From positions 1 through 37,933 of IMG/VR virus record IMGVR_UViG_3300015360_001429: 37,933 bases of DNA; one strand, given 5' to 3'. The notes below the pieces were generated by a model. The model worked only from the letters and a program-made list of their open reading frames with translations, was not told the DNA's origin and did no database searches. Both the position numbers and the translations under genes were made by a program. Positions 18,963 through 37,730 of the stretch are shown here, piece after piece. The stretch comes from a virus. Each line of letters opens with the position of its first letter. The stretch's first letter is position 1.

Positions 18963-19702
18963 ACGCCGAGCGCATCCTCGATGACCTCCACTGGCGCGGG
19001 CTGGCGCTCACCGGCGCCATGCCCCATGCAAACGAGTTCACCGCCCACCTGAAGACCTGTCCGGTATTCCCCGGTCATGTCATCGCGCAGGGCGACGGTG
19101 TCGCGCGCAACTGGGAGGGGGCGCTCGACCGCGAAGTCCTGTCGCATCGCATGGCGGACGTGCTGGCGGCGCCACACTTCTTCGACTTCGCGGTAAAGTT
19201 CACCCCCGCCATCGCGCGGTTCTTCGGCGAGCCGCCGGTCATGTACTCGTTCAACGCCTTCTGGACCCGCCCGGGACCGACCCTGCCCGACGTGAACATC
19301 CAGCAATGGCACCGTGACCGCGACGACCGCAAGTTCGTCGCCCTGTTCATGTACGGAACCGACGTGGCGAGCGACGAACAGGGGCCGCATCTCTACGTTA
19401 CCGGATCGCACAAGACCTATGACGACGGCAACCGGCCCCCGGTGTCGTTCGAAGAGGTGCAGCGGGTGAGCGGTATCGCCGGCACGACGTTCCTCGAATG
19501 TCCGCGCGGCCTGCACATGGGTATCAAACCGGTCGACGGCGAACGCTTGCTGGCCTGGGCGCGCTGGGGTGTGTCGGAGAAACCTCGTTCCTACTTATGG
19601 GACAAGCTGGAGCCGGTCGCGGCGTCGTCGCTTGCGCTGACGGGTGAGTATTCCGACGACGTGAAGACTTCGACACGGCTGACGGTGGACTGGGGCGCAT
19701 GA
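18959..19702 (+). CDS. PhyH-like Fe(II)/2-oxoglutarate dioxygenase, 247 aa
   Basis: Resembles phytanoyl-CoA dioxygenase-like enzymes, which hydroxylate or otherwise oxidise small molecules using Fe(II), O2 and 2-oxoglutarate. The metal triad is readable: H118 and D120 in QQWHRDRDD, and H186 in RGLHMGIKP, followed by basic residues R196 and R202 that could bind 2-oxoglutarate. The jelly-roll strands MYSFNAFWTRPG and HLYVTGSHKTY flank the first part of the site. At 247 residues it is a normal length for the short members. It is coupled to both neighbours by ATGA overlaps and precedes four glycosyltransferases, so a sugar or glycolipid substrate is plausible. The start at 18959, not the earlier in-frame ATG at 18797, avoids overlap with the HTH gene. 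Confidence 0.75.
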   Translation: MNAERILDDLHWRGLALTGAMPHANEFTAHLKTCPVFPGHVIAQGDGVARNWEGALDREVLSHRMADVLAAPHFFDFAVKFTPAIARFFGEPPVMYSFNAFWTRPGPTLPDVNIQQWHRDRDDRKFVALFMYGTDVASDEQGPHLYVTGSHKTYDDGNRPPVSFEEVQRVSGIAGTTFLECPRGLHMGIKPVDGERLLAWARWGVSEKPRSYLWDKLEPVAASSLALTGEYSDDVKTSTRLTVDWGA

Positions 19703-20586
19703 AAATACTGGCGTTGCGGCCAATGGATATGACGACTCAGCCCGTTATGGGCGGCCTCGAATCGCTTGAACGGCACGACATCACGACCGTCGTCTACAAC
19801 CACCTGCCCAGTATCGACGGCGGTTTTCTTGACGCGGTCGATAATGTCCGGCCCGACGTGGTGCTGTATCTCGGCAACAACGACCCGCGCCTGATGGCGT
19901 CGAACCGCACTTTCCAGAAGATGCGGAAGCTGGCGAAGACCGTGCTGCTGGCGTTCGATGCCTCCGACGCGACATGGACCCCGGTGCTGGAGTCCTACCG
20001 CAACGAAGAATGTTTCAGCCTGACGGTGAACATCGACGGCAACGATAACTGGCCGAAAGGTTCTCGGGACTATACGGCCCTCACCCCAACAGACCCGCGA
20101 CCTTACCGAGATCAAACACATCTTGGCGAACGCCCCGTCCGTTTCGGGTTCGCTGGCGGATACTCATCCCCTTCCCGCGCTGAAATCGTCAATTACCTCC
20201 GCGCGGAAGCTGGCCTTGTCGTCCCGAAACGCGACGAAGTTTACGGCTCCTATCGCGCCTACGCCCGCTTCATGGCTTCCTGTCAGTTCGTCCTCAACGT
20301 CCCCTTCTCCGGCTCCGACAACGCCAAGCAGGTCAAGGGGCGGGTGATCGAGGCCGGCATGGCTGGCTGTGTGCTGCTGGAAATGACCGGCGCCGCGACC
20401 GAGAACTGGTTCGACTCCGCCCTCGACTATGCCCGCTACACGTCGAAGGAACACATCCTCGACCTGCTGGCGGAGTTGCAGCACTTCCCCGGGGCCGCCG
20501 ACATGCTGGCGACGAATCTCTACACCCAGGTCCGTAAAAACCACGCCCCAGAGGTGTTCTGGGCAAAACTGTTCGGGAGCCTCTAA
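19699..20586 (+). CDS. CgeB-like GT-B glycosyltransferase, paralog 1 of 4, 295 aa
   Basis: N-terminal Rossmann-like half with RPDVVLYLGNNDPRL (about 51-65) and DASDATWTPVLESYRNEECF (about 87-106). The C-terminal half has FGFAGGYSSPSRAE and the donor-site stretch KGRVIEAGMAGCVLLE (213-228), with E218 in the place of the conserved Glu of GT4/CgeB-type (DUF3880-like) transferases. These enzymes move a sugar from a nucleotide donor to a glycan or protein. It is shorter than bacterial GT4 enzymes (about 350-400) and lacks a signal peptide, so it should act in the cytosol. The ATG overlaps the previous stop (ATGA). Donor and acceptor are unknown. Confidence 0.72.
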   Translation: MKILALRPMDMTTQPVMGGLESLERHDITTVVYNHLPSIDGGFLDAVDNVRPDVVLYLGNNDPRLMASNRTFQKMRKLAKTVLLAFDASDATWTPVLESYRNEECFSLTVNIDGNDNWPKGSRDYTALTPTDPRPYRDQTHLGERPVRFGFAGGYSSPSRAEIVNYLRAEAGLVVPKRDEVYGSYRAYARFMASCQFVLNVPFSGSDNAKQVKGRVIEAGMAGCVLLEMTGAATENWFDSALDYARYTSKEHILDLLAELQHFPGAADMLATNLYTQVRKNHAPEVFWAKLFGSL

Positions 20587-21639
20587 GTGAAAATTCTTGT
20601 CCTCACGACCTCGACCAACAACGTAAATACGTTCGTCGGCAGCCTCGCCTGCGTGCCGAACGTCGAAGTGTCGATCCTGAACTACGACCAGAAGTATCAC
20701 CAGGCGGTCAACACGGTGTTCCAGAACAACCCCCAGGCGCTGGCGCAGTATCAGCAGCAGGGCGTCGTGCCACACATCAAGCGCGACGACGCGGCGATGG
20801 ACGACGAGATGCTGATGGAGGCAAAGCTCGGCAAGCCCGACCTGATCGTCTACATCTCGGCGTGGCAGGGCGCGTTCGTCCCCCTCAACGACACCTTGGG
20901 CGAGTTGAACCAGATCGCCCCGGTTGTCCACTTCCTCTGCGACGCGGCAGACCCGCCATGGTGGCCCCAGCTCAAGGAGTTCGAGCGCCGCAACCAGTTC
21001 TCGCTGACGGTAGCGATCGACGGCGCGGAAGTGTGGCCCGGGTCGCCAGACCGGTCCGCATGGCTGGCAATGCTAAATCCCCGTGAAGAAGTCTGGTGTG
21101 TGTCAAAAGCTCTCACCCGGCTCACCCCCATTGACACCCGCGCTTTCGCGCGGGACAACGGCCTGTCGTTCGCGGAGCGCCCCTACGCCATCGGCTATGC
21201 CGGCAACGCCGGAACCCACACCCGCAACGCCATCGTCAAGCGGCTCTCGGCGGTGCGCGGGTTCGAGCATCGTCCGCGCGACCAGCACCCGCAATCCTAC
21301 GGCCAGTTCGTCGACTTCCTCCAGAACACCCGCATCGCGGTGTCGGTGCCGTTCACCGGCTCGGGCGCCGCGCGGCACGTCAAGGGGCGCGTGCTGGAGG
21401 CCGGGTTTGCCGGTTGCGCCCTGATGGAGTGGAAGAACTCGGCAACAGCGAAGTGGTTCACCCCGCGCCATGAATATTTTGAATATGAGAGCGTCGAGGA
21501 ATGCGCGTTCTACGCGGAGTGGCTGGCGACTCAGCCGAAACTTTGCCGCGACATGGCGGCCGCGCTGAACAGGAAAGTATGGGACGAGCATCGACCCGAG
21601 GTGTTCTGGGACAGTGTGTTTGCGGCGGTGGGGAAGTGA
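20587..21639 (+). CDS. CgeB-like GT-B glycosyltransferase, paralog 2 of 4, 350 aa
   Basis: Starts with GTG immediately after the previous stop. It shares the family landmarks: KPDLIVYISAWQGAF, FLCDAADPPWWPQLKEFERR, FSLTVAIDGAEVWPG, then IGYAGNAGTHTRNAIVKRL and the donor motif HVKGRVLEAGFAGCALME. It is about 50 residues longer than paralogs 1 and 4. Part comes from an N-terminal loop (about 43-68, Gln/Asn/Ala-rich). Another part is a roughly 20-residue segment (NPREEVWCVSKALTR) between AIDG and the LTPIDTRAF stretch, where the others have only a short linker. The same nucleotide-sugar transfer role is expected, possibly with another acceptor. Confidence 0.7.
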   Translation: MKILVLTTSTNNVNTFVGSLACVPNVEVSILNYDQKYHQAVNTVFQNNPQALAQYQQQGVVPHIKRDDAAMDDEMLMEAKLGKPDLIVYISAWQGAFVPLNDTLGELNQIAPVVHFLCDAADPPWWPQLKEFERRNQFSLTVAIDGAEVWPGSPDRSAWLAMLNPREEVWCVSKALTRLTPIDTRAFARDNGLSFAERPYAIGYAGNAGTHTRNAIVKRLSAVRGFEHRPRDQHPQSYGQFVDFLQNTRIAVSVPFTGSGAARHVKGRVLEAGFAGCALMEWKNSATAKWFTPRHEYFEYESVEECAFYAEWLATQPKLCRDMAAALNRKVWDEHRPEVFWDSVFAAVGK

Positions 21640-24473: not shown

Positions 24474-26177
24474 CTACTTCTTCTTCGCCTGCAACTTCGC
24501 CCATTCCTCGGGGTTGGTCTGCTTCAACTGCTCGCTCTGGGCGGCGGCTGCGGCCTGCCGGGTGCGGAGGTTCTCCTTCCACCGCTCGCCCTCGGGCATG
24601 TTCATGGCGTCGATCAGCTCCTCGGGGCCGATAGCGCCGGTCTTGGCGAGGAAGCCGACCTTCTGCATGTTGTCCTCTTCGTAGATCGGCGACGACGAGT
24701 GACTGTCGACGGTGATCTGGCGGTCGGCCGGCAAGTTGATGAGCTTGAACACGGACGGCTTGTCGCCCGCGGTGGTGTAATCCCGCGGGTCCTTGGCGAT
24801 CTTCAACTCCATCGCGAGGTTGCCCAGGTCCGCCGCCTGCCGCTCCACAATCAGGGCGCGGTCGCGCATCCGCGGGCTGGCGTTCCGCATCAGAGTCTGC
24901 GTTTGGCTGTCGGAGCGCACCCCGGGCATCACCTCGCCGGACAGGGCCGGGGTGAATCCGCTGACCTCGTCCATAAAACTCAGAATTTGCTTGATGTCGG
25001 CGAACGCCTCTTTCGGCACCTCCGGCGTCAGGTCCTTAACGTCCGAACCGGCTTCGAGGCCGAGATAACCAGACTGCCGGAACTGGTCGTACATGTCCTC
25101 GGTTATGCCCATACCGCCGACGAACGCCAGCAGCCGGTCGTACTGGAGACCCATGATCTTCTTCAGGTCCTCCAGCCGGTCTTTGAGCATGTGTTGCAGC
25201 TTAAGCAGGTCCGCCATCTCGGTGCGGCCCCAGAAATAGCCCTCAAACTCGTTCGGCTGAATCAGAGTGTAGGGATGCCGCCCGGGCACGTTGTCCTCCG
25301 GCCGCGCCGGCAGGAACATATTGCTGCGCTTGGTCGTCGGCGCAATGAGAATGTCGGGCGCGACCATCTGGATTGTCGTCCAGTCCGAAGTCTCGTCGTT
25401 CCGCACCCACAGCTCGTGGAACGCCATCAGCTTCGACGCGACCTCGGGGGCCAGCACGCCGCCGCCGGGGTCGGCCGCGAGCGACACTATGCCGCCGGTC
25501 GTCGTGGAGTACGGCATCTCGGTCTGCACGCTGGGGGCCGAGTGGGCGATCAGGACCTGATGGAAATAGCCTAGTTCGCTGTCGATGACCCCGTCGCCCG
25601 AACCGGCATAGTCCCGCGCCCTCTTGAACATATCCATCGCGTTGGGCAGGTGCGAAATCCGCCGCCACAACTCAGTCGGGGTGATCCAGTTGGTCTCGCA
25701 CATCGCCTCCTGCGCGTGCAGACCGATCTTGTTCTCCTGGTAGACCCCGAACTGCCACGGCATCACGAGGTTGCAGCCGAGGCCCTGCGCGCCCCATGCC
25801 AGCTTTGGTATCGCGGCGCCGTAGGTCAGGGCGATATCGACGCCGCGCGCGAAGGTCAGGTCGATCTTGTGACGGGAGAAGTCGCGAGTCAGCAGCTTGG
25901 CCGACATCTCCATCATCGCGAGGGTGTCGCGCGGGTAGGTATTGTCGGCGTCCATGAAGAAGCGAAGATTGGTCGGCGAGAACAGGTATGACGCCATGCG
26001 GTCGACACAGTGATTCAGCCGGTTCAGAATCGCCGTGTTGCCGTCCGGCGAGCCGTTGTAGCGCCAGGTCCGCAGCGACCGCGCCATGTTGGAGCGGGCC
26101 GACACGGTGTTGCGGCACTCCTGAATCCGCGCCTCAGCCCACTCCGGCAGCAGCGCGTCGGAGTCAGGTAGTATCAT
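24474..26177 (-). CDS. Portal protein candidate, 567 aa
   Basis: The portal ring at the capsid vertex threads DNA and docks the terminase. Length, charge and place (after terminase, before head genes in transcription order) fit. Seen: LNRLNHCVDRMASYLFSPTN near the N-terminus, MPWQFGVYQENKIGLHAQEA, PYTLIQPNEFEGYFWGRTEM (the clip/stem region commonly begins with a Pro-rich strand like this), long helices DLLKLQHMLKDRLEDLKKIM, and a Gln/Lys-rich C-terminal tail. This arrangement resembles podovirus head-to-tail connectors. Its first codons (MILPD) were copied into the gene upstream during a tandem duplication. The start at 26177 overlaps that gene by 14 bases. A 113-base spacer with no convincing terminator hairpin separates it from the convergent SDR gene. 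Confidence 0.75.
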   Translation of the reverse strand: MILPDSDALLPEWAEARIQECRNTVSARSNMARSLRTWRYNGSPDGNTAILNRLNHCVDRMASYLFSPTNLRFFMDADNTYPRDTLAMMEMSAKLLTRDFSRHKIDLTFARGVDIALTYGAAIPKLAWGAQGLGCNLVMPWQFGVYQENKIGLHAQEAMCETNWITPTELWRRISHLPNAMDMFKRARDYAGSGDGVIDSELGYFHQVLIAHSAPSVQTEMPYSTTTGGIVSLAADPGGGVLAPEVASKLMAFHELWVRNDETSDWTTIQMVAPDILIAPTTKRSNMFLPARPEDNVPGRHPYTLIQPNEFEGYFWGRTEMADLLKLQHMLKDRLEDLKKIMGLQYDRLLAFVGGMGITEDMYDQFRQSGYLGLEAGSDVKDLTPEVPKEAFADIKQILSFMDEVSGFTPALSGEVMPGVRSDSQTQTLMRNASPRMRDRALIVERQAADLGNLAMELKIAKDPRDYTTAGDKPSVFKLINLPADRQITVDSHSSSPIYEEDNMQKVGFLAKTGAIGPEELIDAMNMPEGERWKENLRTRQAAAAAQSEQLKQTNPEEWAKLQAKKK

Positions 26178-26847
26178 CGCCCGCCCCCACCGAAACCGCC
26201 ACTTTAGGCGCCGTCGACATCTGCGGCGACTGGCCGCGCTGGATGGCCCGCAGTGCCAGATTATCGCCCTGCGCAGCGCCGGGCCCGGTGTTGGCTAGTT
26301 TCACCGTGGCCAGCGTCACCTCGCTGTAGTGGGAGTTCTTCTCGTGGTTCTGGGAGCGCATTGCCTCGGCGGTCTGCGACACCAGATTGTTCACCGGCAT
26401 GGCGGCGGTTTCGCCGATCTTCACGTCGTCGCGCATGTTGGTAATCTCCAGGCTGGGGTCACCGGCGGCCGCGGCCCGCGCTGCCGAAGTTTCCTCGAAG
26501 TCAGGTAGTATCATCGCACACCCCCACCGAAACCGCCAGACATGCCCGCCACTTTAGGCGCCGTCGGCACCCGCGGCGACCGGCTGCCCTGGATGGCCCG
26601 CAGTGCCGGATTATCGCCCTGCCCGGCGCTGAGCCCGGTGTTGGCTAGTTTCACCGTGGCCTGCATCGACTCGCTGTAGTAGGCGTTCTTCTCGTGGTTA
26701 TGGGAGCGCATTGCCTCGGCGGTCTGCGACACCAGATTGTTCACCGGCATGGCGGCGGTTTCGCCGATCTTCACGTTGTCGCGCATGTTGGTAATCTTCA
26801 GGCTGGGGTCACCGGCGGCCGCGGCCCGCGCTGCCGAAGTTTCCTCG
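26163..26847. repeat. Tandem duplication, two copies of about 340 bp
   Basis: Copy A at about 26163-26496 and copy B at about 26500-26847 align throughout, with period 337 on the left and 350 on the right because copy B contains 13 extra bases after GAAACCGCC. In the aligned 100 coding codons I count 20 base differences (about 93 percent identity). The unit spans the C-terminal region of the zinc-ribbon gene up to the first codons of the portal gene, so duplication created a new start for copy A. Eighteen amino acids differ and only one substitution is clearly synonymous. Confidence 0.85.
26164..26514 (-). CDS. Chimeric duplicate of the upstream gene's C-terminal region, 116 aa
   Basis: The protein begins with MILPDF, the first codons of the portal gene, then continues EETSAARAAAAGDPSLEITN, a diverged copy of residues from the C-terminal part of the upstream zinc-ribbon protein. 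The matching 100 residues differ at 18 positions. The zinc ribbon itself is not duplicated. A 13-base indel near the end shifts the frame, so the last residues (VSVGAGDDTT) differ from those of the parent (GMSGGFGGGVR) and the stop moves into the portal start. It keeps an intact frame with the parent's ATGA coupling. Function unknown; the retained segment is probably a helical virion or assembly module. Confidence 0.7.
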   Translation of the reverse strand: MILPDFEETSAARAAAAGDPSLEITNMRDDVKIGETAAMPVNNLVSQTAEAMRSQNHEKNSHYSEVTLATVKLANTGPGAAQGDNLALRAIQRGQSPQMSTAPKVAVSVGAGDDTT

Positions 26848-27047
26848 GTTTGCCGCCACATCTGATCGACCGAGCGGGCCGCCACGGAGCCGCCGATGTT
26901 GAAACCCTCGGGCACCTTGGCCGGGTCGGTCCCGACGAAAACCCCGCAGGACGGACAATAATCCGGCGCTTTCTCGGCAACTGACAGGATGCACTTGAAC
27001 TCGTGCCGGCAATCCGGGCAGCGGAAGGTCATTTTATAGGCCATCAT
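26511..27047 (-). CDS. Zinc-ribbon protein with helical C-terminal region, 178 aa
   Basis: Residues 9-35 form a zinc ribbon: FRCPDCRHEFKC then YCPSCGVF, giving two CxxC pairs about 20 residues apart. The rest (about 60-178) is a soluble, helix-rich region with AMPVNNLVSQTAEAMRSHNH and a Gly-rich end. Zinc ribbons in phage often mediate protein or nucleic-acid contacts. It sits between terminase and portal, so a packaging or portal-assembly helper is a reasonable guess. Two adjacent ATGs (27047 and 27044) compete; GAGG is better spaced for the second. Its C-terminal part is the source of the tandem copy just downstream. Confidence 0.65.
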   Translation of the reverse strand: MMAYKMTFRCPDCRHEFKCILSVAEKAPDYCPSCGVFVGTDPAKVPEGFNIGGSVAARSVDQMWRQTEETSAARAAAAGDPSLKITNMRDNVKIGETAAMPVNNLVSQTAEAMRSHNHEKNAYYSESMQATVKLANTGLSAGQGDNPALRAIQGSRSPRVPTAPKVAGMSGGFGGGVR

Positions 27048-27050
27048 GCC

Positions 27051-30000
27051 TCACCAGTTCCACCGGTTACCCCGCCGCGCCGACCGCGCCGACTCGACCC
27101 GCTCGCGGCGCTGCCGCTGGAAAAAGTCCTTGACAACGCTGCCGCTGAACATGGCTTGGTAATCGTCCGCCGTCAAGGTTCGGCGTTTCGCCTCGTTCTC
27201 GCGGCTGCGCTCCTGCACGATGAGCCGCTTACGCTCGCCTTCTTCCCAGGCCCGCACCGCCAGCGCCATGGCCATCACCCGGTCGTCCTTGGCGGTGCCC
27301 TCGCCGCCGATGCTGTCGCCACGCCGGACCACCGTCCGCATCTCTTCCAGCAGGTCGATGGACCGGATATTCAACTGCCCGACATGAAAAAAGTCCCGCT
27401 CCCGCTCCAAAATGTGGATTTTATTCTTCGGCGTAGTTTTCCAGTGGACCGTCGTCGGGGTGCGGTTCAGCTTGTCGCCCGAGACGTTCAGGAAGTGCCG
27501 GACGTTGGTGAAGATGTTCTTCACCCCGCGCTCGCCGTTGTCATGGTCGAACTGGTTCATCCGGGCGGCGAACTCCAGCTCGCGGATGGCGTTCAACACT
27601 GCCTCGCCAGGACCGTTCAGTTCCAGCAGCAGCCGGACTCCCGTGCCGCCTTCGCCCGCGTAAGCGCCAGCGAGGTGGGCCAGCACCCAGGCGAACTGGT
27701 AGGTCGTGATATTGGGGTCGCAGAACTCGCCGACCTGGTCGACCCCGTCCGAGTAGCAGCGCAGTATCTGAGCAACGTGGCGGTCGGAGGTCGGACCCGA
27801 GCCATAGGCGGGGTCGGCCCCGATGGCATAGACACCCGAGGGGTCGGGGTCCTCCCAGATGCGGAGGTGGGCGTGCCGCGCCGACCGCGCCGGCTCAATG
27901 ATCGTCGCGGTGAAGTCGTCGCCCAGGTGGTAGCGGTAGCCGGTCATCGGGTAGGTCAGCGCCGCCTTGGTGGCGAGGGTCAGGCGATCCGACGGGAAGA
28001 ACTTGCTCCCCGTCATTAGGAAAGCCTCGTCTTCGGTGTTGTGCGTCAAAACACCGTTGGCGTCGAACATGTGATGCTCGGCCACGCTGACATTGTAGAC
28101 TGGGGCGATATCCCGCTGCTCGACCCTGGCCACAGTGTCTTCCAGCGCAAGTGGGACACGGCGGCTCGAATAGCGTTTCCGACCCGTGAGTCGTGTCGAA
28201 CTGCGCGCTATCTTGCGCGCTCCGACAAACCCGATCTGTTTATTGAACGCGATGCCTTCCTCGCTGCGCAACTGTAACTCGTTGGCGGTGTAGCTATGCT
28301 TGCGCGAGACGCCCTTTTCGACATAGGTCGTGCGCGCCAGCCGCGAGGTCCGACGGCAGGTCACGCCAAACCCTAAAAGCAATATCTGGACGTCTTCAAG
28401 AAACTTCGGCCATTTGGAAAACAGAACTACGCGCTCGCCACCGTAGCCGTTGAAACCGTCAGCCTCGAAAAGTCCCCGCAAGAACTCACGCACGACGTGC
28501 TTTGGGGAGCGCCAAATAAATTCGGGCACATGCACGTTCCGCATAGTTTTTACGGTGTCGTTCCGTGCGAGACCCATCTTGCGAAACGTCTCGACGACTA
28601 GACGGCTTCCGCTGCGTACCTCCTCGCAACCCCCCTTAATTCGGGTTGGAACTTCGACGCCGAAAATGGTTTCTACGAGGCGCCTAACTTCGTTTACGAC
28701 ATCCTGGTCCTTCCTGTCGCAGGCTATCGACAGAACACCTGCGCCACCTTTCTTCCCCGCGCCCTGCAAAGAACCGTCGCCCATGTAAAAACCGACAAGC
28801 CGCGCCATATCGGGCGTGATCGGCACGGCGCATTCAATCGACCCTTCGTTCCAGCGGAATACATACTCCTTGGCAGCGAAGCGTGGCGGTTGCAGCCGCA
28901 CTCGCTGGTCGGCGCAGTCCTTCAGATCGACAAAAGAACCGTCTGTTTTCGCTACGGGGTGGTTGCCTGTCCCGACGAATCGGTACCCCAGAGCCGTCGT
29001 CATTTCGTAGGTCTGGGCTACGCCCGTCTGGCCGGCGGATGTAATAGCGCCAAGACTGCCGACGTAGCCGGGCAAAGCCTCCTCGATGGGTATAATTCCG
29101 TGGTCAGTGCCTACTCGTGTGCCGGCAACAACGCACCACGGCAGCTCTTGTAGGTTTATCTCGGCTCCAGTCGACGCCTCGACCTCGCGGAACGAACCGT
29201 CCATCTTCGGTTCGGTCTGGTGCCGGTACCACGCCAGTTGCTCCATCGTGACGGCGAAACCGTAGCGCTCCTGCACCTCCTTGATCTTGGCCTTCTCGTT
29301 TTCGTCAGGCGCGGCCGACCCGTACCGCTCGAACAGCAGAGAGCCGCGGGGATAGGAGTATGATTCCTTGGCCCACCAACCGATGAAGATTGCCCGCTTG
29401 GTCAGCGTGTCCGCCTTGGCCGCCTCCCACAGCGTGTGAAAGATGTTGAATCCGCGAGCCGTGCTTTCCCAGATGTAGAGCCGGTTCGGGTGGGTGTGCG
29501 ACAGCGAACGCTCGAACGACTTCAAGCCCTCGATGTCCACCCACGACGAGATTTCGGTGCAGCCCGCCGCCGCGATGCCACGCGAGCGGCCGAGCCCGCC
29601 AGACCCCCTGCTCTTCTTGATACCGGCGACAAAGAACGAGATGCGCGAGCCGTTCTCGAACTCCATGAAGTCGCGGTTGTCGCCACCCTGTTTCAGGGCG
29701 ATGGTGTGGGTCTCCGGCAGGCGTTCGAGGAACTGCTGGATTTCGGCCCGGGCGTCGCGACGGTTGGAGTCGGTATCGTAGACCAGGGCGATCTTCATGC
29801 CCTCGTTGACATAGGCCCAGAACACGATGAGACAGCGGACGATGGTCGACAGGCCAAGCTGGCGGGCCTTCAGCACTGTGAACGAGCGGATGTCCTTCTC
29901 CAGCCCGTCGAACACTTCGGTCAGGAAGCGGCGCTGCGCGGTGTAAAGCGGCAGAGTCTTGAAGCCCTCCCACTCCTTCGAGGCGATCTGAACGTGCTGT

Positions 30001-30071
30001 AGGAAATCGTGAAACAGAACCTTGAACTGCTCGGTCTTGTCCTTGTTCCAGCCGCCGGACAGGGGGGTCAT
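27051..30071 (-). CDS. Terminase large subunit with intein, 1006 aa (640 aa after splicing)
   Basis: This is the ATP-driven DNA packaging motor and headful nuclease. ATPase: a deviant Walker A, ARQLGLST (69-76), and a Walker B/catalytic Glu candidate at E173 in GCTEISSW. Nuclease (RuvC-like): D753 in GADPAYGSG, E817 in LLLELNGPG and D929/D930 in KDDRVMA. An intein occupies residues 313-678 and is described separately. Joining residues 312 and 679 gives ELPW-TEDEAFLMTGSKFF, the conserved EEAF-type linker between the two domains. The 640-residue spliced product is normal for the family. The ATG overlaps the previous stop as ATGA. The small terminase is not recognised nearby. Confidence 0.9.
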   Translation of the reverse strand: MTPLSGGWNKDKTEQFKVLFHDFLQHVQIASKEWEGFKTLPLYTAQRRFLTEVFDGLEKDIRSFTVLKARQLGLSTIVRCLIVFWAYVNEGMKIALVYDTDSNRRDARAEIQQFLERLPETHTIALKQGGDNRDFMEFENGSRISFFVAGIKKSRGSGGLGRSRGIAAAGCTEISSWVDIEGLKSFERSLSHTHPNRLYIWESTARGFNIFHTLWEAAKADTLTKRAIFIGWWAKESYSYPRGSLLFERYGSAAPDENEKAKIKEVQERYGFAVTMEQLAWYRHQTEPKMDGSFREVEASTGAEINLQELPWCVVAGTRVGTDHGIIPIEEALPGYVGSLGAITSAGQTGVAQTYEMTTALGYRFVGTGNHPVAKTDGSFVDLKDCADQRVRLQPPRFAAKEYVFRWNEGSIECAVPITPDMARLVGFYMGDGSLQGAGKKGGAGVLSIACDRKDQDVVNEVRRLVETIFGVEVPTRIKGGCEEVRSGSRLVVETFRKMGLARNDTVKTMRNVHVPEFIWRSPKHVVREFLRGLFEADGFNGYGGERVVLFSKWPKFLEDVQILLLGFGVTCRRTSRLARTTYVEKGVSRKHSYTANELQLRSEEGIAFNKQIGFVGARKIARSSTRLTGRKRYSSRRVPLALEDTVARVEQRDIAPVYNVSVAEHHMFDANGVLTHNTEDEAFLMTGSKFFPSDRLTLATKAALTYPMTGYRYHLGDDFTATIIEPARSARHAHLRIWEDPDPSGVYAIGADPAYGSGPTSDRHVAQILRCYSDGVDQVGEFCDPNITTYQFAWVLAHLAGAYAGEGGTGVRLLLELNGPGEAVLNAIRELEFAARMNQFDHDNGERGVKNIFTNVRHFLNVSGDKLNRTPTTVHWKTTPKNKIHILERERDFFHVGQLNIRSIDLLEEMRTVVRRGDSIGGEGTAKDDRVMAMALAVRAWEEGERKRLIVQERSRENEAKRRTLTADDYQAMFSGSVVKDFFQRQRRERVESARSARRGNRWNW
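28038..29135 (-). mobile_element. Intein with LAGLIDADG endonuclease, 366 aa, in TerL
   Basis: It starts at Cys (residue 313 of the host protein) with CVVAGTRVGTDHGIIPIEEA and ends at VLTHN before Thr679, so a class 1 intein with C1, a TxxH motif (TGNHPV, H371), a terminal HN and a Thr +1 nucleophile. Two dodecapeptide motifs mark a single-chain LAGLIDADG homing endonuclease: LVGFYMGDGS (D432) and LRGLFEADGF (D538). Catalytic splicing and endonuclease residues all look intact. Sampled lines inside are about 47-60 percent G+C against about 68 in the flanking terminase, a sign of separate ancestry. It splices itself out; its endonuclease could drive spread between terminase genes. Confidence 0.92.
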
Positions 30072-30837: not shown

Positions 30838-31830
30838 TCATAGCCCCTCGGGTTCGTACAGCACGACGGTGGAGCCCGGCGCACCGATCCTGAATTGCAC
30901 CTCGACCAGTTTGTCGAGGCGGTTGCGCACCGCGTCCTGCCGCTCCGGCGGGACAAAGAATAGCATAAACCCTCCCCCGCCGGCACCCAGGAGTTTGCCG
31001 CCCAGCGCGCCGGCCGAGACGGCGGCGGCGTAGATGTCGTCGATCTCGGGGGTGGAGACACCCCTGGACAGGGACTTCTTGGCTCGCCATGCGTCGTCCA
31101 GCATTGGCCCCATGCGGTCCACGGGGCCGTCGTCGGAGACGAGGGCGCCGGCCATCCGCGCGAGGCAGGCGCTATCTTTCACCGCCTGCACGTTGTCGCC
31201 GAGGTTCTTAATGACGTCGCCGGCGATGTCGGTAGCGTTGCGGCTGAACCCGGTGAAGAACAGCATCAGGTGGTCCTGCAACTCCTGCTGCCGGGCCCTG
31301 GCGATCACGACGGGCTGCACGTCGTAGCTATGGTCCGGGTGGAACAATATTCGGTTGAACCCGCCATGTGCCGCCCAGACCTGGTCCTGGCTGCCGACAT
31401 TCTCCCCCAGGCGGTCGCGCTCAATGTGGATCGCCGTCTCGACCAGTCGCTGGTTGACGATGCGGGCGCCTTTCAGCGCCAGCAGGGCGTTGATGAGCCC
31501 CACGACGAACGACGAACTGGAGCCGAGGCCCGACCGCGCGGGGAGGTCGCCGTCGTGGTGCATCTCAATGCCGCATCCGGGGTCGCACAACAGCATAGTC
31601 TCGCGCACAGCGGGGTGCTGCACCTCGGGGAAGTTTCGCACCAGCTCCGTCTTGGAGTAGACAATGCGGTGCTTGTAGGCGAAAAACGGCGGCAACCGGC
31701 GCAGATGTATCCAGCAATAGCGGTTAACGGCGAATCCGAACACCTCGCCACCGTGCCTCTCGAAGTGAGCGGGGTAGTCGGAGCCGCCCCCGAACAACGA
31801 CACCCGATAGGGGGTGCGGGTGATAATCAT
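30838..31830 (-). CDS. hddA: GHMP kinase, D-glycero-D-manno-heptose 7-phosphate kinase-like (HddA), 330 aa
   Basis: HddA phosphorylates heptose 7-phosphate at C1 in the GDP-heptose branch. Seen here: the family opening TPYRVSLFGGGSDYPAHF, the ATP-binding GHMP motif LPARSGLGSSSSF (96-108) and the C-terminal LLGAGGGGFMLFF motif. The heptose and fucose kinase-like subgroup shares the GGGSDxP motif near the N-terminus. Length is normal. An in-frame ATG lies seven codons upstream at 31851, but the one at 31830 overlaps the HddC stop as ATGA. It is encoded next to HddC and GmhA, which strengthens the heptose assignment. The fucose kinase side of the family is the alternative. Confidence 0.75.
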   Translation of the reverse strand: MIITRTPYRVSLFGGGSDYPAHFERHGGEVFGFAVNRYCWIHLRRLPPFFAYKHRIVYSKTELVRNFPEVQHPAVRETMLLCDPGCGIEMHHDGDLPARSGLGSSSSFVVGLINALLALKGARIVNQRLVETAIHIERDRLGENVGSQDQVWAAHGGFNRILFHPDHSYDVQPVVIARARQQELQDHLMLFFTGFSRNATDIAGDVIKNLGDNVQAVKDSACLARMAGALVSDDGPVDRMGPMLDDAWRAKKSLSRGVSTPEIDDIYAAAVSAGALGGKLLGAGGGGFMLFFVPPERQDAVRNRLDKLVEVQFRIGAPGSTVVLYEPEGL

Positions 31831-32447
31831 GCCGCGTGCTCCAAAACCCACCGGACGGACCGTGCGTAGGCATCCGGCGTGCCGATGTCGAAGTAAGACC
31901 CGCGTCTCGTGTCGCGTCGGCGGTCGACGAGATTGAGGTACGGCGGCAAGTCCCTCTCGCCGCTATCGGTCAGGTGCGCGATCCCGGATCGCGACAGCAG
32001 GGTGAAGCCGCTCGGAAACACCCCGCTGTTCAGTGAATCGGCGTGGAGCATCAGGCTGCAATAGTCGGTGTTGAATCGCTCGACGAAGTCCGCGAACTCC
32101 GGGCAGTCGATCAGGGTGTCGCCGTTGCAGACCAGCACGGGGTCGGAGGTCAGGAACCTGCGCGCCGACCGTATCGCCCCGACGGTCCCAGTCGGCTCGG
32201 CCTCGACAGACACGATCACCGGCCACTTAGAGGCCCAATCCAGTATGGCGTCGGCGCCGTGCGCGGTGCAGAGAATGACCTTTTTGGCGCCGTGCCGCTG
32301 GGTCAGAAAGCGCAGCAGGTACTCAATAAACGGGCGTCCGTTCACCGGGGCGAGGCACTTCGGTGTGCTCCCCAGCACCGGGGCGATGCGGGTGCCCAGC
32401 CCGCCGCACAGGATCGCAACGTCGATGTTGGCGAGGCAGAGGCTCAC
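31827..32447 (-). CDS. hddC: Nucleotidyltransferase, heptose 1-phosphate guanylyltransferase-like (HddC), 206 aa
   Basis: HddC transfers GMP to D-glycero-alpha-D-manno-heptose 1-phosphate to form the activated sugar. The signature AILCGGLGTRIAPVLGSTPK (11-30) followed by CLAPVNGRPFIEYLL is the nucleotide-binding loop; D110 in LVCNGDTLID is the metal-binding Asp; YFDIGTPDAY near 185-195 is the closing motif of the small family. Length 206 is slightly short (about 220-230 usual) but no domain is lost. ATGA overlaps at both ends. Sequence alone cannot exclude another sugar 1-phosphate; the HddA and GmhA neighbours favour heptose. Confidence 0.75.
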   Translation of the reverse strand: MSLCLANIDVAILCGGLGTRIAPVLGSTPKCLAPVNGRPFIEYLLRFLTQRHGAKKVILCTAHGADAILDWASKWPVIVSVEAEPTGTVGAIRSARRFLTSDPVLVCNGDTLIDCPEFADFVERFNTDYCSLMLHADSLNSGVFPSGFTLLSRSGIAHLTDSGERDLPPYLNLVDRRRDTRRGSYFDIGTPDAYARSVRWVLEHAA

Positions 32448-33910
32448 GTAATCTCCCCCGTCAGCAACTTCCGCTTCAGCTTGTACTGCACCATCTCCTT
32501 GACGTGGTGGAGGGTCTCGGGACCGAACTTCTTCAGAACCATGTCGCGGTAGGCGGCGGCGGTGAAGTAGCGGGTGAACGCGGCGTCGCGGAAGGCGAGG
32601 ACCTGTTTCGCGGTAAGATGCTCGGTATCGAGCGGCCGGCAGTCGGAATTGTGTTGGCTATATCCGGCCCAGGTCTCCGGCAGGGTCCAGCCCTCGGCAA
32701 GCGCCTGGTCATAAAGGGCGCTGCCGGGGTACGCCATGCAACAATAAAAATTTGCGAACGATGTGTTGAGTTCCAGCGCGAGGGCGAGCGTTTCACCCAT
32801 CGACTCTAGGTCGTCGGTCAAAAGACCGAATATGAAGTTAGAAATCACGTTGATTCCTGCGGCCTCGATAGCCCGGACGACGTTGACGATGTCGTTATCG
32901 TTTTTCAGGGCCTTGTGCGCCGCCGCACGCACGCGCGCAGAGCCGCTTTCGATGCCCAAAGCAAACCAATTAAAGCCCGCCGCCCTAAACATGGGCAGCA
33001 TATCTGGCTTCACAGTGTCCGTTCGGGCGTAGCACCACGATGAAATTTTAGCGCCCAGGCCACTTGCGATAAGACCTTCGCAGATCGCCGTGCAGTGCTT
33101 CCGGTTCAGAACGAAAAGTTCGTCCGTGAACTTGAATGTTTCGACGCCGTAGACCTCGTTCAACATGACCATTTCGGCAACGACTGCTTCCGGCGACCGC
33201 ATACGGTAGGCGTTGGTGTGCTGAAAAACATTAATCATGCAGAAGTTACATTTGTAGCTGCACCCAAGCGATGTGTGGATCGCCGCGTACGGTTGGCGCT
33301 TGGAAAGATCGTCGAACCGCTGCCAGTTATGACTCCGGAACTTGTCCATGGGTAGCAGATGCCACGCGTTGCCGTGCAGGTCCTTGTCCATGTCCAGCGG
33401 CTTGGCGAGCGGGTTTTGCCGGATCGCATCGCCCTCGCGCCAGACAAGCCCGGGGATGGTTTCGGGCATCATGCCGTTCAATAGGCCCTCGATCGATACC
33501 GGGCCCTCGCCGTCGACAACATAATCCACCGCTTCCTCGCGCAAAGTGCGAACCGGCAGCGCCGAGGGGTGGTTTCCGGTCATCACGACAAGCTGCTCGG
33601 GATTGGCGGCCTTCAGCGCCCGACAGAACTCGCCGGCCCCCATCATCTGCTGGGACGACGCACTAGGCTGGTGGCCCCCGACGACGACGACGACGATAGC
33701 GGCGTCTTTGCCGGCCGCAATTTTAGCGGCCGACACCGGGTTCAGGTGTTCGACTTCGGCGTCAAGTATTTCGACTGTGAAGCCCCGGTCCAAAAGATAA
33801 CCCGCGATCAAGCGGCACCACAACGGTTGCTCTACCGCGACGAGTTTATCGCCGAGGGGGCCAAAAATCCCGTGAATAGCGTTTGGGTGGACAAGGAGGA
33901 CGTCGATCAT
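32444..33910 (-). CDS. Cobalamin-binding radical SAM enzyme, 488 aa
   Basis: The N-terminal domain looks like a B12-binding Rossmann fold (VLLVHPNAIHGIFGPL, then VVVVGGHQPSAS and VMTGNHPSALPVRTLRE). The radical SAM core has the cluster motif GCSYKCNFC (C217, C221, C224), a GIESGS motif and ELFVLNRKHC. This family (class B type) does methyl transfers at inert carbons, ring contractions and other radical steps. The C-terminal 100 residues are less typical. I chose ATG at 33910 over the TTG-initiated extension to 33952. The 59 bases before the SDR gene are otherwise empty. Parts of the gene are near 48 percent G+C, unlike its neighbours. It may install a methyl branch on the sugar; the substrate is unknown. 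Confidence 0.75.
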   Translation of the reverse strand: MIDVLLVHPNAIHGIFGPLGDKLVAVEQPLWCRLIAGYLLDRGFTVEILDAEVEHLNPVSAAKIAAGKDAAIVVVVVGGHQPSASSQQMMGAGEFCRALKAANPEQLVVMTGNHPSALPVRTLREEAVDYVVDGEGPVSIEGLLNGMMPETIPGLVWREGDAIRQNPLAKPLDMDKDLHGNAWHLLPMDKFRSHNWQRFDDLSKRQPYAAIHTSLGCSYKCNFCMINVFQHTNAYRMRSPEAVVAEMVMLNEVYGVETFKFTDELFVLNRKHCTAICEGLIASGLGAKISSWCYARTDTVKPDMLPMFRAAGFNWFALGIESGSARVRAAAHKALKNDNDIVNVVRAIEAAGINVISNFIFGLLTDDLESMGETLALALELNTSFANFYCCMAYPGSALYDQALAEGWTLPETWAGYSQHNSDCRPLDTEHLTAKQVLAFRDAAFTRYFTAAAYRDMVLKKFGPETLHHVKEMVQYKLKRKLLTGEIT

Positions 33911-33969
33911 GTGCGAGGCTCTTTCCACGAGTTTCCGCTCCGAATATTCCAAATCCGCCCACGCCGCAC

Positions 33970-34908
33970 TCAGGCATTGGCGTACCGCCGCGTTTTGAGG
34001 GTGTTGAACAGCTTTTTCAGTTCAACAATGCCGTCGTCAAGCGACTTGTGCGGTCGCCAGCCGGTTTTTTCGATCTTTTCGTTGCTGACGATGTAGTCGC
34101 GCTTGTCCGGGTCCTCACCGATGGGCGATTCGACCCAGGTAAAGTCGGAAATGTGCTTCTTGATGACCTCGCACAGCTCGATCTTCGACAAATTCGCGCT
34201 GGACAGGCCGACATTGAAGGCATTGCCGCGCATTTTCTCGAAATTGTCGATGGAATGGACAAAAGCGTTCGCAACATCGGCGATATGGATGAAATTCCGC
34301 TTGAAATGACCCTCGAACAGCACGATAGCGCGGTCGGTCAGCGCCCGAAGCACGAACTCGTTGACCAAAAGGTCCTGGCGCATGCGCGGACTGGCCCCGA
34401 ACACCGTCGCCAGGCGCAAACTGATCGAATTTTTCCGCAGCAGCACGACTTCCTCGGCTAAGACCTTCGATTTACCATACGAGGTCAGCGGACGCAGCGG
34501 CGATTCCTCGGTACACATCTCCCCGGGCGCGCCGATCCCATACCCGGAGTTGGTCGTGGGCGTGACGATGCGCTGCTGCACGCTGGCGCGGCTGCACAAC
34601 TGCCCGATCGCGTTGTAATTGGTGCTCCAGGTCGCAGTGTAGTCGGCCATACAGGCGGACGCGCCCACAATCGCCGCCAGCGGGACGATATAGTCGGCGC
34701 ACCTAAGCAGCGGCAGCAGCACGTCGTCGTCGCGGCAGTCGCCCCTGAACACCTCGAAGTCAGGATTGGCGCAGCAGGCGGCGAGGCTGTTCTCCCCGTG
34801 CATAAAATTGTCGAGCGCCAGCACCTTGTAGCCGCAGGACAGCAGGCGGGGGACGAGGACAGAGCCGAGATAGCCGGCGGCGCCGGTCACTAAAACAGTT
34901 GCGGTCAC
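33970..34908 (-). CDS. Extended SDR, NDP-sugar epimerase/reductase-like, 312 aa
   Basis: The dinucleotide motif VTGAAGYLGS (G9, G12, G15) and catalytic Y144 and K148 in TSYGKSKVL are intact. The Ser/Thr region reads TPTTNSGYGIG, without the Thr-Asp-Glu seen in 4,6-dehydratases, so an epimerase or ketoreductase is more likely than a dehydratase. RNFIHIADVANAFVHSI is the substrate/cofactor segment typical of NDP-sugar SDRs. GTG at 34908 has a strong GGAGG site and overlaps the previous stop as GTGA. It may reduce the 4-keto intermediate made after the DegT-like dehydratase. Its 3' half is less GC-rich than its neighbours. Confidence 0.78.
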   Translation of the reverse strand: MTATVLVTGAAGYLGSVLVPRLLSCGYKVLALDNFMHGENSLAACCANPDFEVFRGDCRDDDVLLPLLRCADYIVPLAAIVGASACMADYTATWSTNYNAIGQLCSRASVQQRIVTPTTNSGYGIGAPGEMCTEESPLRPLTSYGKSKVLAEEVVLLRKNSISLRLATVFGASPRMRQDLLVNEFVLRALTDRAIVLFEGHFKRNFIHIADVANAFVHSIDNFEKMRGNAFNVGLSSANLSKIELCEVIKKHISDFTWVESPIGEDPDKRDYIVSNEKIEKTGWRPHKSLDDGIVELKKLFNTLKTRRYANA

Positions 34909-36023
34909 AAAGTCCTCCGCATGACGCCCGCCGCCTTCTCGATCTCCGGCAGCATCGGGTACGGCGCGTTGCCGAGGAACAGGCCGCAGACGTGCAGCAT
35001 GTCGGCATGCGGCGTCGGGTTGGCCTCGCGCCACTTCCGCCCGTAGCGGTGCAGCGTGAAGCTGCCTCCCGTCGGTGGCCGGCAGTCGATGCCCTCGGCG
35101 CGCAAGGCCAGCGCCAGTCGGGCCCGCAGCGCGTGACTCTCGACCCGAAAGTTCAGGCCAAACGGGGAGACCACGCCGTTACGGCGGGGAAACTCAACCG
35201 CCAGCCCGTAGGTCGCGGCAACGAAGTTGTTGAGGTTCTGCTCGCGGTGACGGCGGAACCCCTCCAGCTTCTTCAACTGCTCGCGCGAGATCGCGGCGTG
35301 CAGCTCCAGCCCGCGGACATTATAGCCGAACAGGCGAAAGTCGTACTCGCGGTCGAAGCCCTCGGGGCGGCTGTAGCGGGTCATGCCATGGTCCCTGAGC
35401 ATCCGCAACAACCCGTTCAACTCGTCGCTGTCGGTCAGCACCATGCCGCCCTCGATGCCAGAGAGCTGGTGGCTGTGGAAGAACGAGAACGTACTCATGT
35501 CGGCAAACGTGCCCGCGAGCCGCTTCTCGCCCAGGGAGCCGACCCATGCGCCGAGGCTTTCACAGCAGTCGTCGATCCAGTAGCGCGGGCGCCGCCGCTC
35601 GTGCTGGAGGTAGTAGCAGGGATTGCCCAGCACCGGCACGGTGACCAGCAGGTCGCAGCCGTCCTCAACCGACGCCGGGGCGTTCCAGGTGTCGTCGCTG
35701 TCGAGGATGTGGAGGCTGAGACCGTGCTGCGCGAGGGGCGCGTAGGTGGTGGCCCAGGCCAGCGCGGGGACGTCCACCCCGTCGCCGGGGCGCAGCGGGT
35801 TGTCTTTAAGGTGGGTCAGCGCGGCGACCGCGATCAAATTGGCGGATGAGCCAGAATTCACATAGACGCCGTGCTTGCGGCCGTGGTGTTCCGCGAACTC
35901 AAGCTCGAACGCGGCGACCTCGGGGCCCTGGGTGTAGAAGCCGCTGGCATGAACCCGGGCGATGGCGGCCTGTTCCTCGGGACCCCACGCGGAATAGGCG
36001 GTGGGGTGGGCGTACTTAGCCAT
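34905..36023 (-). CDS. DegT-fold PLP enzyme with Lys-to-His change, ColD-like 3-dehydratase, 372 aa
   Basis: Overall DegT/DnrJ/EryC1 sugar aminotransferase fold: VNSGSSANLIAVAAL (phosphate loop), WIDDCCESLGA (D152, PLP pyridine N) and DMSTFSFFHSH with EGGMVLTDSDEL after it. In aminotransferases the catalytic Lys lies six residues before the Glu of EGG; here that position is H185. The same substitution defines ColD (GDP-4-keto-6-deoxymannose 3-dehydratase) and E1 of 3,6-dideoxyhexose synthesis, which use PMP and remove the 3-OH instead of transaminating. It probably makes a 3-deoxy sugar. Length is normal. The start at 36023 overlaps the end of the isomerase gene by eight bases. Confidence 0.8.
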   Translation of the reverse strand: MAKYAHPTAYSAWGPEEQAAIARVHASGFYTQGPEVAAFELEFAEHHGRKHGVYVNSGSSANLIAVAALTHLKDNPLRPGDGVDVPALAWATTYAPLAQHGLSLHILDSDDTWNAPASVEDGCDLLVTVPVLGNPCYYLQHERRRPRYWIDDCCESLGAWVGSLGEKRLAGTFADMSTFSFFHSHQLSGIEGGMVLTDSDELNGLLRMLRDHGMTRYSRPEGFDREYDFRLFGYNVRGLELHAAISREQLKKLEGFRRHREQNLNNFVAATYGLAVEFPRRNGVVSPFGLNFRVESHALRARLALALRAEGIDCRPPTGGSFTLHRYGRKWREANPTPHADMLHVCGLFLGNAPYPMLPEIEKAAGVMRRTL

Positions 36024-36603
36024 CGCGCAGGCTCCGGTCGATACAGTCGGCGAAATGGTGCAGCACGACCATGTGGGCCTGCTGGATCAGTGGGGTTGCG
36101 GCGCTGGGGATGCGGATTTCGAGGGCCGCACGCGCCCCGAAAGCCCCGGGCCGCACAATCCCAGCGGCTCCGGTCAGGGCGATGCCGGTTAACCCCTTGT
36201 CCGCCGCCGCTGACAGCGCCTCCTGCACGTTCGGCGATTTTCCCGAGGCGGTCAGCACGACAAGAACGCCACCGAATTCGCCGTGGGCTTCGACCTGCCG
36301 CCCAAACACGCCGCTGAACTGGTCGTCGTTCGACCACGCGGTGAGAAACACCGGGTCGGCGGGAAGCGCTATGGCCTTTACCGGGCGCCGCACTTTGCCG
36401 CCGTAGCGACCGGTCAGTTCCGCGACGAAGTGCATAGCGTCGGCCGCGCTGCCGCCGTTGCCACAGACCAGTATCGGCTTGCGGGCGCGGGCGGCGGCCA
36501 CAAGGAATTCGGCCGCCGTCGCTATTGTGGCGCCAAGGCCAGGAGCGTCGTGCATCTGCTTGAGCACGAACTCTGAGTCGGCGAGATGCTGGCGCCATTT
36601 CAT
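36016..36603 (-). CDS. gmhA: Phosphoheptose isomerase GmhA, 195 aa
   Basis: GmhA converts sedoheptulose 7-phosphate to D-glycero-D-manno-heptose 7-phosphate, the entry step to heptose nucleotides. The SIS domain is clear: VCGNGGSAADAMHFVAELTG (phosphate loop, with H58 and E62 of the metal site), VVLTASGKSPNV (second phosphate loop) and IQQAHMVVLHHFADCID (Q174 and H182, completing the zinc ligands). The size matches bacterial GmhA (about 190). HddA and HddC are encoded downstream in the same transcript, so the GDP route is implied. The GmhB phosphatase step is not seen in this window. Start ATG at 36603. Confidence 0.88.
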   Translation of the reverse strand: MKWRQHLADSEFVLKQMHDAPGLGATIATAAEFLVAAARARKPILVCGNGGSAADAMHFVAELTGRYGGKVRRPVKAIALPADPVFLTAWSNDDQFSGVFGRQVEAHGEFGGVLVVLTASGKSPNVQEALSAAADKGLTGIALTGAAGIVRPGAFGARAALEIRIPSAATPLIQQAHMVVLHHFADCIDRSLRDG

Positions 36604-37122
36604 CTAATAAGCTCCGCTGTACTCGACCAGCACGGTCGATCCGTTGTGGGCGAGGGCGCGACGGTAGGCGGGCACAATGTCCCCGGCGGTGGGGAGGCGC
36701 TCAATCCGCACCGTCTTGAGCATGATCTTAAGCGCCCCGCGGAAGTCGCCGAGGTGTTGCGGTCCGGGGTCCATCGGGGTAGCGGTGGGAACCGCGACGC
36801 GGATGATGACCCGGGGGCGATAGTCGGAGTAGAGCGGCAATTTGTCGAGGTGGTTGACCAGCGCGTCGGTCGCGCACAGCAGGAAGTTCATGCGCGGAAA
36901 AACGCAGACCGGCAGGCAACCGGCGAGGGCCATGCCGGTTGCCATCGACAATTGCGTATTCTCGAAGACCGGAAGTTCGAGAAGGGTCGCAGGGTCGAGG
37001 TGGCGGAAGGTCTGGCTCATGCCGGTGCCGTCGCAAGCAACCGACTGCCCCATGAACACGGGGTTTGGCTGCGCGGCGCAGAGCGACATGGCGTCTTTCA
37101 GGGCGGCGATGTAAGCGGACAT
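36604..37122 (-). CDS. TPP enzyme Pyr-domain subunit (E1-beta-like), 172 aa
   Basis: Resembles the pyrimidine-binding domain of transketolase and 2-oxoacid dehydrogenase E1-beta. ELPVFENTQLSMATGMALAG contains E54, in the place of the Glu that activates the cofactor. CVFPRMNFLLCATDALVNHL and GPQHLGDF (the PQHS-like segment) follow. The usual C-terminal transketolase domain is absent, so it is half the length of E1-beta (about 325-340). It overlaps the PP-domain gene by one base (TGATG), which argues for coupled, stoichiometric production of a heterodimer or tetramer. The start at 37122 is preferred over an upstream in-frame ATG that lies inside the other gene. Confidence 0.78.
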   Translation of the reverse strand: MSAYIAALKDAMSLCAAQPNPVFMGQSVACDGTGMSQTFRHLDPATLLELPVFENTQLSMATGMALAGCLPVCVFPRMNFLLCATDALVNHLDKLPLYSDYRPRVIIRVAVPTATPMDPGPQHLGDFRGALKIMLKTVRIERLPTAGDIVPAYRRALAHNGSTVLVEYSGAY

Positions 37123-37730
37123 CAGAACTCCACGCGCTTGCCGGCGCCGGCATGGGGCCACCTGGCGGAGAGGTCGTATTTGTACCGGATGGGCGCCGGA
37201 AATCGGTCATCCACACCCGCGCTGGCCCAAACGTTCTGGGTGTCGGTCAGCACCGACCGGCCATTGTCCTCGATGACCACCTGGAGCGGCAATCCATGAC
37301 CATGAGCATACGACGCCGCTTCCCAGTGCGCGCCGGTCTCGGCGGTCATGTCACCGACGAAACACCACACCTTCGCGCCCGACGGTTTCCGTTTCTCCGC
37401 CCAGGCGAGGCCCAGCGCGATGGGAATCGCGCCGCCGACGATGGCGGACGACACGATCCGGTGCTCAGGGAAACAGAGGGTTATGCTGCGACCGCTGCGA
37501 ACCGCCTGGCGCAACTCGTCCTCGGGGACGCCCTTCAGAAGACAGTGGTAGTGCGAACGCCACGAGACGCAGAGCCAGTCCTGCGGCTGAACGCCCTGGA
37601 AAATGTCGATCAACTGCTGCTCGTTGCCGTGGGAGAGGTGAACCGGGTGCGGGATTTCCCCAGCGTTGAAAGCGGAAGCTATGCTTTCCTCGAAAGCCCG
37701 CAACGAATCCACCGTATGATTTGTAATCAT
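37122..37730 (-). CDS. TPP enzyme PP-domain subunit (E1-alpha-like), 202 aa
   Basis: Resembles the pyrophosphate-binding domain of 2-oxoacid dehydrogenase E1-alpha. VHLSHGNEQQLIDIF and HYHCLLKGVPEDEL match the family's opening, and CFVGDMTAETGAHWEAASY with VIEDN about 30 residues after GD (G126, D127, N156) is the diphosphate/Mg motif. It is far shorter than E1-alpha (about 320-400). With the adjacent Pyr-domain gene it makes a minimal two-subunit TPP enzyme. Such enzymes form or cleave C-C bonds beside a carbonyl, for example decarboxylation of a 2-oxoacid followed by acyl transfer. ATG at 37730. Confidence 0.78.
   Translation of the reverse strand: MITNHTVDSLRAFEESIASAFNAGEIPHPVHLSHGNEQQLIDIFQGVQPQDWLCVSWRSHYHCLLKGVPEDELRQAVRSGRSITLCFPEHRIVSSAIVGGAIPIALGLAWAEKRKPSGAKVWCFVGDMTAETGAHWEAASYAHGHGLPLQVVIEDNGRSVLTDTQNVWASAGVDDRFPAPIRYKYDLSARWPHAGAGKRVEF

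Follow-up and report, generated by a model that had tools for sequence, protein, structure and literature searches.

Close to one end of a 37.9-kb IMG/VR virus record (the window, that is, the whole 37,933-nucleotide stretch analysed here), two very short genes, PP and Pyr, resemble the halves of a TPP-dependent enzyme and raise the question of what reaction so small an enzyme could serve in a virus. They head an eight-gene operon, in the order PP, Pyr, GmhA-like, DegT, SDR, B12-radical SAM, HddC-like and HddA-like (Table 1), in which most genes overlap and the others nearly touch. This agrees with a sequence-only reading of the DNA, which had described a minimal split TPP enzyme within a nucleotide-sugar operon. 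As the contig stops 203 nt upstream of PP, the operon may extend further. We consider it marginally probable that PP and Pyr form a TPP-dependent heteromeric carboligase, which would add a C2 (or similar) branch to a GDP-4-keto-3-deoxy-heptose.

Table 1. Positions in the window of the operon genes and of the residues discussed in the text.
Feature	Position	Strand	Evidence
PP-domain subunit, E1-alpha-like, 202 aa	37122..37730	-	Pfam E1_dh 4e-10; PHROG 34187; conserved in 112 sequences
Diphosphate motif G126-D127-M128 of PP	37347..37355	-	G and M 112/112; D 100, E 8, G 4
N156, diphosphate motif of PP	37263..37265	-	112/112
Pyr-domain subunit, E1-beta-like without Transketolase_C, 172 aa, ATG start	36604..37122	-	AlphaFold2 pLDDT 96.2; Z 22.8 to E1-beta
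Activating glutamate E54 of Pyr	36961..36963	-	109/109
GmhA-like SIS isomerase (sedoheptulose-7-phosphate isomerase type)	36016..36603	-	Pfam SIS_2; gmhA profile 136 bits, below equivalog cut-off
DegT-fold 3-dehydrase, ColD/RfbH type	34905..36023	-	best PDB match ColD/WbdK 9e-55
His185 at catalytic Lys position of the DegT-fold protein	35469..35471	-	77/77 scored sequences over 60 bits, window included
SDR, Cj1427-like GDP-heptose C4-dehydrogenase	33970..34908	-	PDB 6vo6, 349 bits, full length
B12-binding radical SAM protein	32444..33952	-	Pfam B12-binding, Radical_SAM; nearest structure AprD4
HddC-like nucleotidyltransferase	31827..32447	-	NF049965 71 bits, best NCBIfam model, below cut-off
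HddA-like GHMP kinase	30838..31851	-	NF049969 136 bits, best NCBIfam model, below cut-off

The two reading frames are exactly as first described, with 202 and 172 residues and a one-base overlap, the junction TGATG sharing one base between the PP stop and the Pyr start; PP also starts with ATG. Among 112 aligned PP and 109 aligned Pyr sequences, G126 and N156 of the proposed diphosphate motif are invariant and D127 is kept in 100 of 112. As a correction, the motif itself reads GDM rather than GDG in every aligned split member; the fused cyanophage form has GDG. The glutamate E54, named earlier as the activating residue, is invariant in Pyr, as are Q122 and H123 (each 109/109). The E1_dh match of PP lies above the Pfam cut-off, and Pyr as a single sequence matches Transket_pyr at 9e-6, just below it. 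A Pfam search returned Transketolase_C for neither ORF, which bears out the claim that the third transketolase domain is missing. The best NCBIfam models were PDH E1-alpha and E1-beta, respectively, at scores far below their equivalog cut-offs. PP almost invariably terminates at one particular Phe (0.99 of the sequences), indicating that its shortness belongs to the family and does not result from truncation. Close to this C-terminus lies a conserved WPHxGxG motif, the His of which (H193) is invariant, and the TYRYxGHSxSDP region of E1-alpha is absent from PP. In E1p, H271-alpha and H128-beta were proposed to aid acyl transfer to lipoate (PMC2663715), and H193 of PP is conjectured to replace H271-alpha.

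The AlphaFold2 model of Pyr found its best fold matches in the E1-beta chains of PDH and BCKDH (Z 22.8, 1.9 A, 168 of 172 residues), with DXS and transketolase ranking lower (Z ~17-19). Since Pyr covers only residues ~1-177 of E1-beta, the model presents it as an E1-beta cut off after the Pyr domain. In a PP-domain tree, made with a quick method from a short alignment, the split and fused members formed one clade of their own (97% SH-aLRT), apart from PDH E1-alpha, a larger Pelagibacter E1 pair and the transketolases. As in the alpha/beta type of the E1 superfamily, the pair combines an E1_dh match in PP, an E1-beta fold in Pyr, the TPP motif and the activating Glu, but it lacks the C-terminal Transketolase_C domain of the beta subunit. 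Neither extra E1 domains nor an E2/E3-like gene were found with it in the window, which makes a lipoamide-linked dehydrogenase complex of the PDH/BCKDH type unlikely; the GHSxSD loop that E1-alpha employs with lipoamide is likewise missing from PP. Membership of the transketolases was not supported, because their Transketolase_N, Pyr and C architecture is not present and they occupy separate branches of the PP tree. The pair also differs from the YerE-like enzymes of the DC superfamily, as it consists of two short chains in which Pfam finds no TPP_enzyme_M middle domain. Pyr also gave a marginal hit (E 0.07) to an adenine phosphopsicosyltransferase chain, which was put down to chance.

Two-subunit TPP decarboxylases of the AzcB/AzcC and ComDE types share the minimal PP and Pyr build without a third domain, a size that is common to such enzymes, and AzcB/AzcC chains (~166-170 aa) are among the fold matches of Pyr. 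The phage pair could accordingly act on its own as a decarboxylase of 2-oxo acids, in the manner of ComDE/phosphonopyruvate decarboxylases or AzcB/AzcC, and release an aldehyde or comparable building block that goes into some other decoration. However, those enzymes act on other substrates and are not the best sequence or fold match, E1-beta chains being ahead of them; neither a PEP mutase nor a sulfonate gene turned up in the operon, and its Cj1427-like and ColD-like members indicate a keto-sugar acceptor, so that this explanation appears rather improbable. A ComDE/phosphonopyruvate decarboxylase profile was found for neither subunit (NCBIfam, E<=0.01), and a search of three genomes with a sulfopyruvate decarboxylase profile gave nothing over the cut-off. 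The earlier view that the sequences look E1-like is borne out by the E1_dh match of PP and the predicted fold of Pyr.

The neighbouring genes point to the acceptor. The DegT-fold protein, which also matches RfbH, carries His in place of the catalytic Lys, as do all 77 sequences scored above 60 bits in the first set of loci, and a wider count of viral PP loci gave 67 His and four Lys at this position. A viral scan seeded with the DegT protein of the window retrieved no relatives, its seed patterns being too specific. An aminotransferase identity was therefore ruled out, and the combination of DegT fold and Lys-to-His replacement is that of the ColD/RfbH 3-dehydrases, which take the C3 hydroxyl off 4-keto sugars. 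Residues 3-309 of the SDR align to PDB 6vo6, which we take to be Cj1427, and by sequence the GDP-heptose C4-dehydrogenase of C. jejuni is the closest counterpart. By inspection, the SDR starts at a GTG overlapping the degT stop. The B12-radical SAM gene likely starts at the ATG at 33910, and an ATG at 31830 in the HddA-like ORF would give an ATGA overlap with hddC. Judged by their similarities, the GmhA-, HddA- and HddC-like genes would supply GDP-heptose; neither GmhB nor an obvious branch reductase was found in the window. With a Cj1427-like C4-dehydrogenase and a ColD-like C3-dehydrase as neighbours, action of the pair on a 4-keto sugar is better supported.

Previous studies showed that Cj1427 and the HS:5 C3-dehydratase yield GDP-4-keto-3-deoxy-heptose in vitro (PMC10680097). 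C. jejuni thus resembles the window in having a C4-dehydrogenase, a C3-dehydratase and GDP-heptose genes (GmhA/HddA/HddC), while its intermediates are epimerised and reduced rather than branched, with no mention of a TPP enzyme (PMC10680097, PMC10440746). The branching logic is known from YerE, which uses pyruvate and CDP-3,6-dideoxy-4-keto-glucose in yersiniose synthesis (PMC12247030). In yersiniose, erwiniose and caryophyllose synthesis, as proposed here, an RfbH/ColD-type dehydrase makes a 4-keto-3-deoxy sugar and TPP-dependent branching follows; unlike the phage pair, YerE is a single-chain flavoprotein of the acetohydroxyacid-synthase type in the decarboxylase superfamily.

It had been suggested from the sequence that acting on a nucleotide sugar would be a new role for this architecture, which does not hold, because the E1-like alpha/beta heterodimers AviB1/AviB2, Pau11/Pau12 and KbDH-alpha/beta ('aKADH2') have already been assigned the addition of pyruvate-derived C2 branches to keto sugars (PMC12247030, PMC4425429). 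Such heterodimers were assigned YerE-type chemistry in the avilamycin, paulomycin, aldgamycin and kibdelomycin systems, and for KbDH this assignment is supported in vitro by its action on sugar analogues that carry a ketone. Like the aKADH2 members, aldgamycin's included, the phage pair is a two-gene E1-alpha/E1-beta-like TPP enzyme amid deoxy-keto-sugar genes. However, Pau11 and Pau12 have 325 and 345 aa against 202 and 172 aa without a third domain, and the aKADH2 enzymes serve hexose- or pentose-derived sugars in antibiotic clusters, whereas the phage pair stands among heptose genes. What seems new is therefore the minimal size without the third domain, the GDP-heptose context and the occurrence in phages. 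From the chemistry of YerE and of the E1-like heterodimers in these other systems, the pair is proposed to branch GDP-4-keto-3-deoxy-heptose.

A scan of viral contigs with PP gave 176 relatives, the best 80 of which were kept, and a cellular scan with one genome per species gave 23, from Pelagibacteraceae, Prochlorococcus, Bacteroidota, Verrucomicrobiota, candidate phyla and an archaeon. Pyr is also present at 79 of these best 80 viral loci and at 21 of the 23 cellular ones, so the pairing is not due to chance. Across 87 non-redundant PP loci, a dehydrase occurs in 61, an SDR in 56 and one or both in 75, a B12-radical SAM protein in 45 and a heptose-making gene in 41. Among viral PP loci that reach 16 kb, 50/60 carry the dehydrase and 40/60 the SDR, compared with 0/23 for each in control nucleotide-sugar loci, which were picked by a generic viral nucleotide-sugar epimerase, are biased to cyanophages and, like the PP loci, are not independent, so that p-values for this comparison serve as a rough guide only. 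The order PP-Pyr-DegT-SDR-rSAM recurs in seven loci (L002, L003, L005, L006, L007, L024 and L056), whose best-matching proteins are mostly ~50-59% identical to those of the window. An L-2-hydroxyglutarate oxidase gene, present in 5/87 loci (500 bits for the L012 copy, where the cut-off is 299), would recycle the by-product of Cj1427. A conserved protein of 133-144 aa (ERKYLPTLSELIDRLSI...) with no Pfam match accompanies 28/87 TPP-pair loci, for instance at L038:922-1320 and L067:6892-7323. In the Pelagibacteraceae locus L089 (3024-9125), an AHAS-like TPP enzyme, a radical SAM gene and a larger E1-like pair (279 and 305 aa, with C domain) precede the minimal pair, placing three TPP enzymes within one surface-sugar cluster.

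Both SDR and dehydrase are missing from 12/87 non-redundant loci, five of which have GmhA-type genes beside the pair. In these five (L029, L054, L065, L066 and L076), PP is immediately preceded by GmhA, and most of them also carry genes resembling heptose kinases and adenylyltransferases, together with a radical SAM protein that is not of the B12 type. A radical SAM protein of ~380 aa, which has no close family, follows the TPP pair at L054:6959-8110 and at the equivalent places in L029, L076 and L102. Since GmhA-like genes adjoin the pair in the window as well as in these five viral loci, and the fused cyanophage forms sit with heptose-kinase-like and adenylyltransferase-like genes, the pair could instead be a minimal transketolase-like or decarboxylating ketol transferase, using for example ribose 5-phosphate and hydroxypyruvate, which would make sedoheptulose 7-phosphate for GmhA and the heptose pathway. 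Against such a role, sequence and fold are nearer to E1 and the tree branches are separate, a heptose-making gene is not nearby in 46/87 loci, and hosts already make sedoheptulose 7-phosphate. The pair is also not a constant companion of the gene set around it: among loci of at least 16 kb it is held by 21/34 of those with the SDR, and 11/24 of those with SDR, HddA and dehydrase have no TPP pair within reach, suggesting that it provides an optional step beside the GDP-keto-heptose pathway. Optional presence fits a branching role better than sedoheptulose 7-phosphate supply, and we regard the latter as unlikely, although less so than a stand-alone decarboxylase.

In cyanophages S-SM2 and P-TIM68, PP and Pyr are fused in one chain (PHROG 34187, 'transketolase central region-containing protein'). 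This fusion is support for joint action of the two subunits, and the analysis covered 20 viral loci that carry relatives of the fused form. The fused protein shares homologous PP and Pyr domains, phage carriage and adjoining heptose genes with the pair, while it is a single chain of ~394-414 aa (AlphaFold2 pLDDT 75, moderate) with its own diphosphate motif, and its loci are without a Cj1427-like SDR and almost never have a ColD-like dehydrase. Its neighbours are a Zn-alcohol dehydrogenase gene and heptose-kinase-like genes. The case for one role across the family is thus weakened by the fused relatives and by the one split subgroup without keto-sugar genes. Besides these exceptions, the much larger size of the known branching heterodimers, the GmhA, HddA and HddC calls below curated cut-offs, and the failure to find GmhB or an obvious branch reductase in the window speak against branching. 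Where SDR and dehydrase are missing, the ketone may be made by another enzyme, or the reaction may be different.

For the window, the pair is E1-like and probably directed at a keto sugar. In the proposed branching reaction, PP (through GDM...N) and Pyr would jointly bind TPP, E54 of Pyr would activate the cofactor, and the heteromer would decarboxylate a 2-oxo acid, most likely pyruvate. The acyl-anion equivalent would then be transferred to the 4-keto carbon of GDP-4-keto-3-deoxy-heptose, giving a GDP-3-deoxy-heptose branched at C4, which the B12 radical SAM enzyme would perhaps alter further before the phage's glycosyltransferases take it up. The same branching could run with another acceptor or donor depending on lineage, such as a keto sugar derived from ADP-heptose or from a hexose, or a 2-oxo acid with a longer chain, as contexts vary between SDR with dehydrase, HldA/HldC with radical SAM, and Zn-alcohol dehydrogenase, and the donor differs among YerE-like enzymes (PMC12247030); the HddA/HddC-like and Cj1427-like genes favour GDP-heptose in the window, and we give these other substrates the least credence. 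Extending the GDP-heptose branching to the family, widespread phage and bacterial minimal E1-like heterodimers without the third domain may make C-branched GDP-3-deoxy-heptoses, a generalization that we consider slightly less likely than not. Literature searches found no description of the phage TPP-pair family, and we know of no activity for any member of the minimal PP/Pyr family.

The minus strand of the window also encodes a terminase with an intein and structural genes. The terminase large subunit ORF (1006 aa, 27051-30071, minus strand) has an in-frame intein-like insert containing a LAGLIDADG domain (Pfam 1e-13). Two adjacent ORFs at 26164-27047 (minus strand) have a near-identical stretch in common (EETSAARAAAAGDPSL.ITNMRD.VKIGETAAMPVNNLVSQTAEAMRS), and two ORFs start with MILPD, which looks like a recent partial gene duplication beside a portal-like gene. 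On the plus strand, two tandem Glyco_trans_1_2 proteins with a weak PhyH-like gene before them lie at 19699-21639, and a GT-like gene (PHROG 14945) is found amid structural genes at 9780-11204 (minus strand). These glycosyltransferase-like genes could use the branched product.

If the proposed role is true, the pair would come close to a minimal natural TPP enzyme for C-C bond formation, which would help define which parts of E1 are needed and could find use as a biocatalyst. It would also give a testable function to many uncharacterised phage and Pelagibacter genes annotated as 'transketolase-like', 'E1' or 'aminotransferase'. Viruses would then build branched higher sugars, and phages would carry their own pathway to an unusual branched heptose, presumably for remodelling of host surface glycans or for virion decoration.
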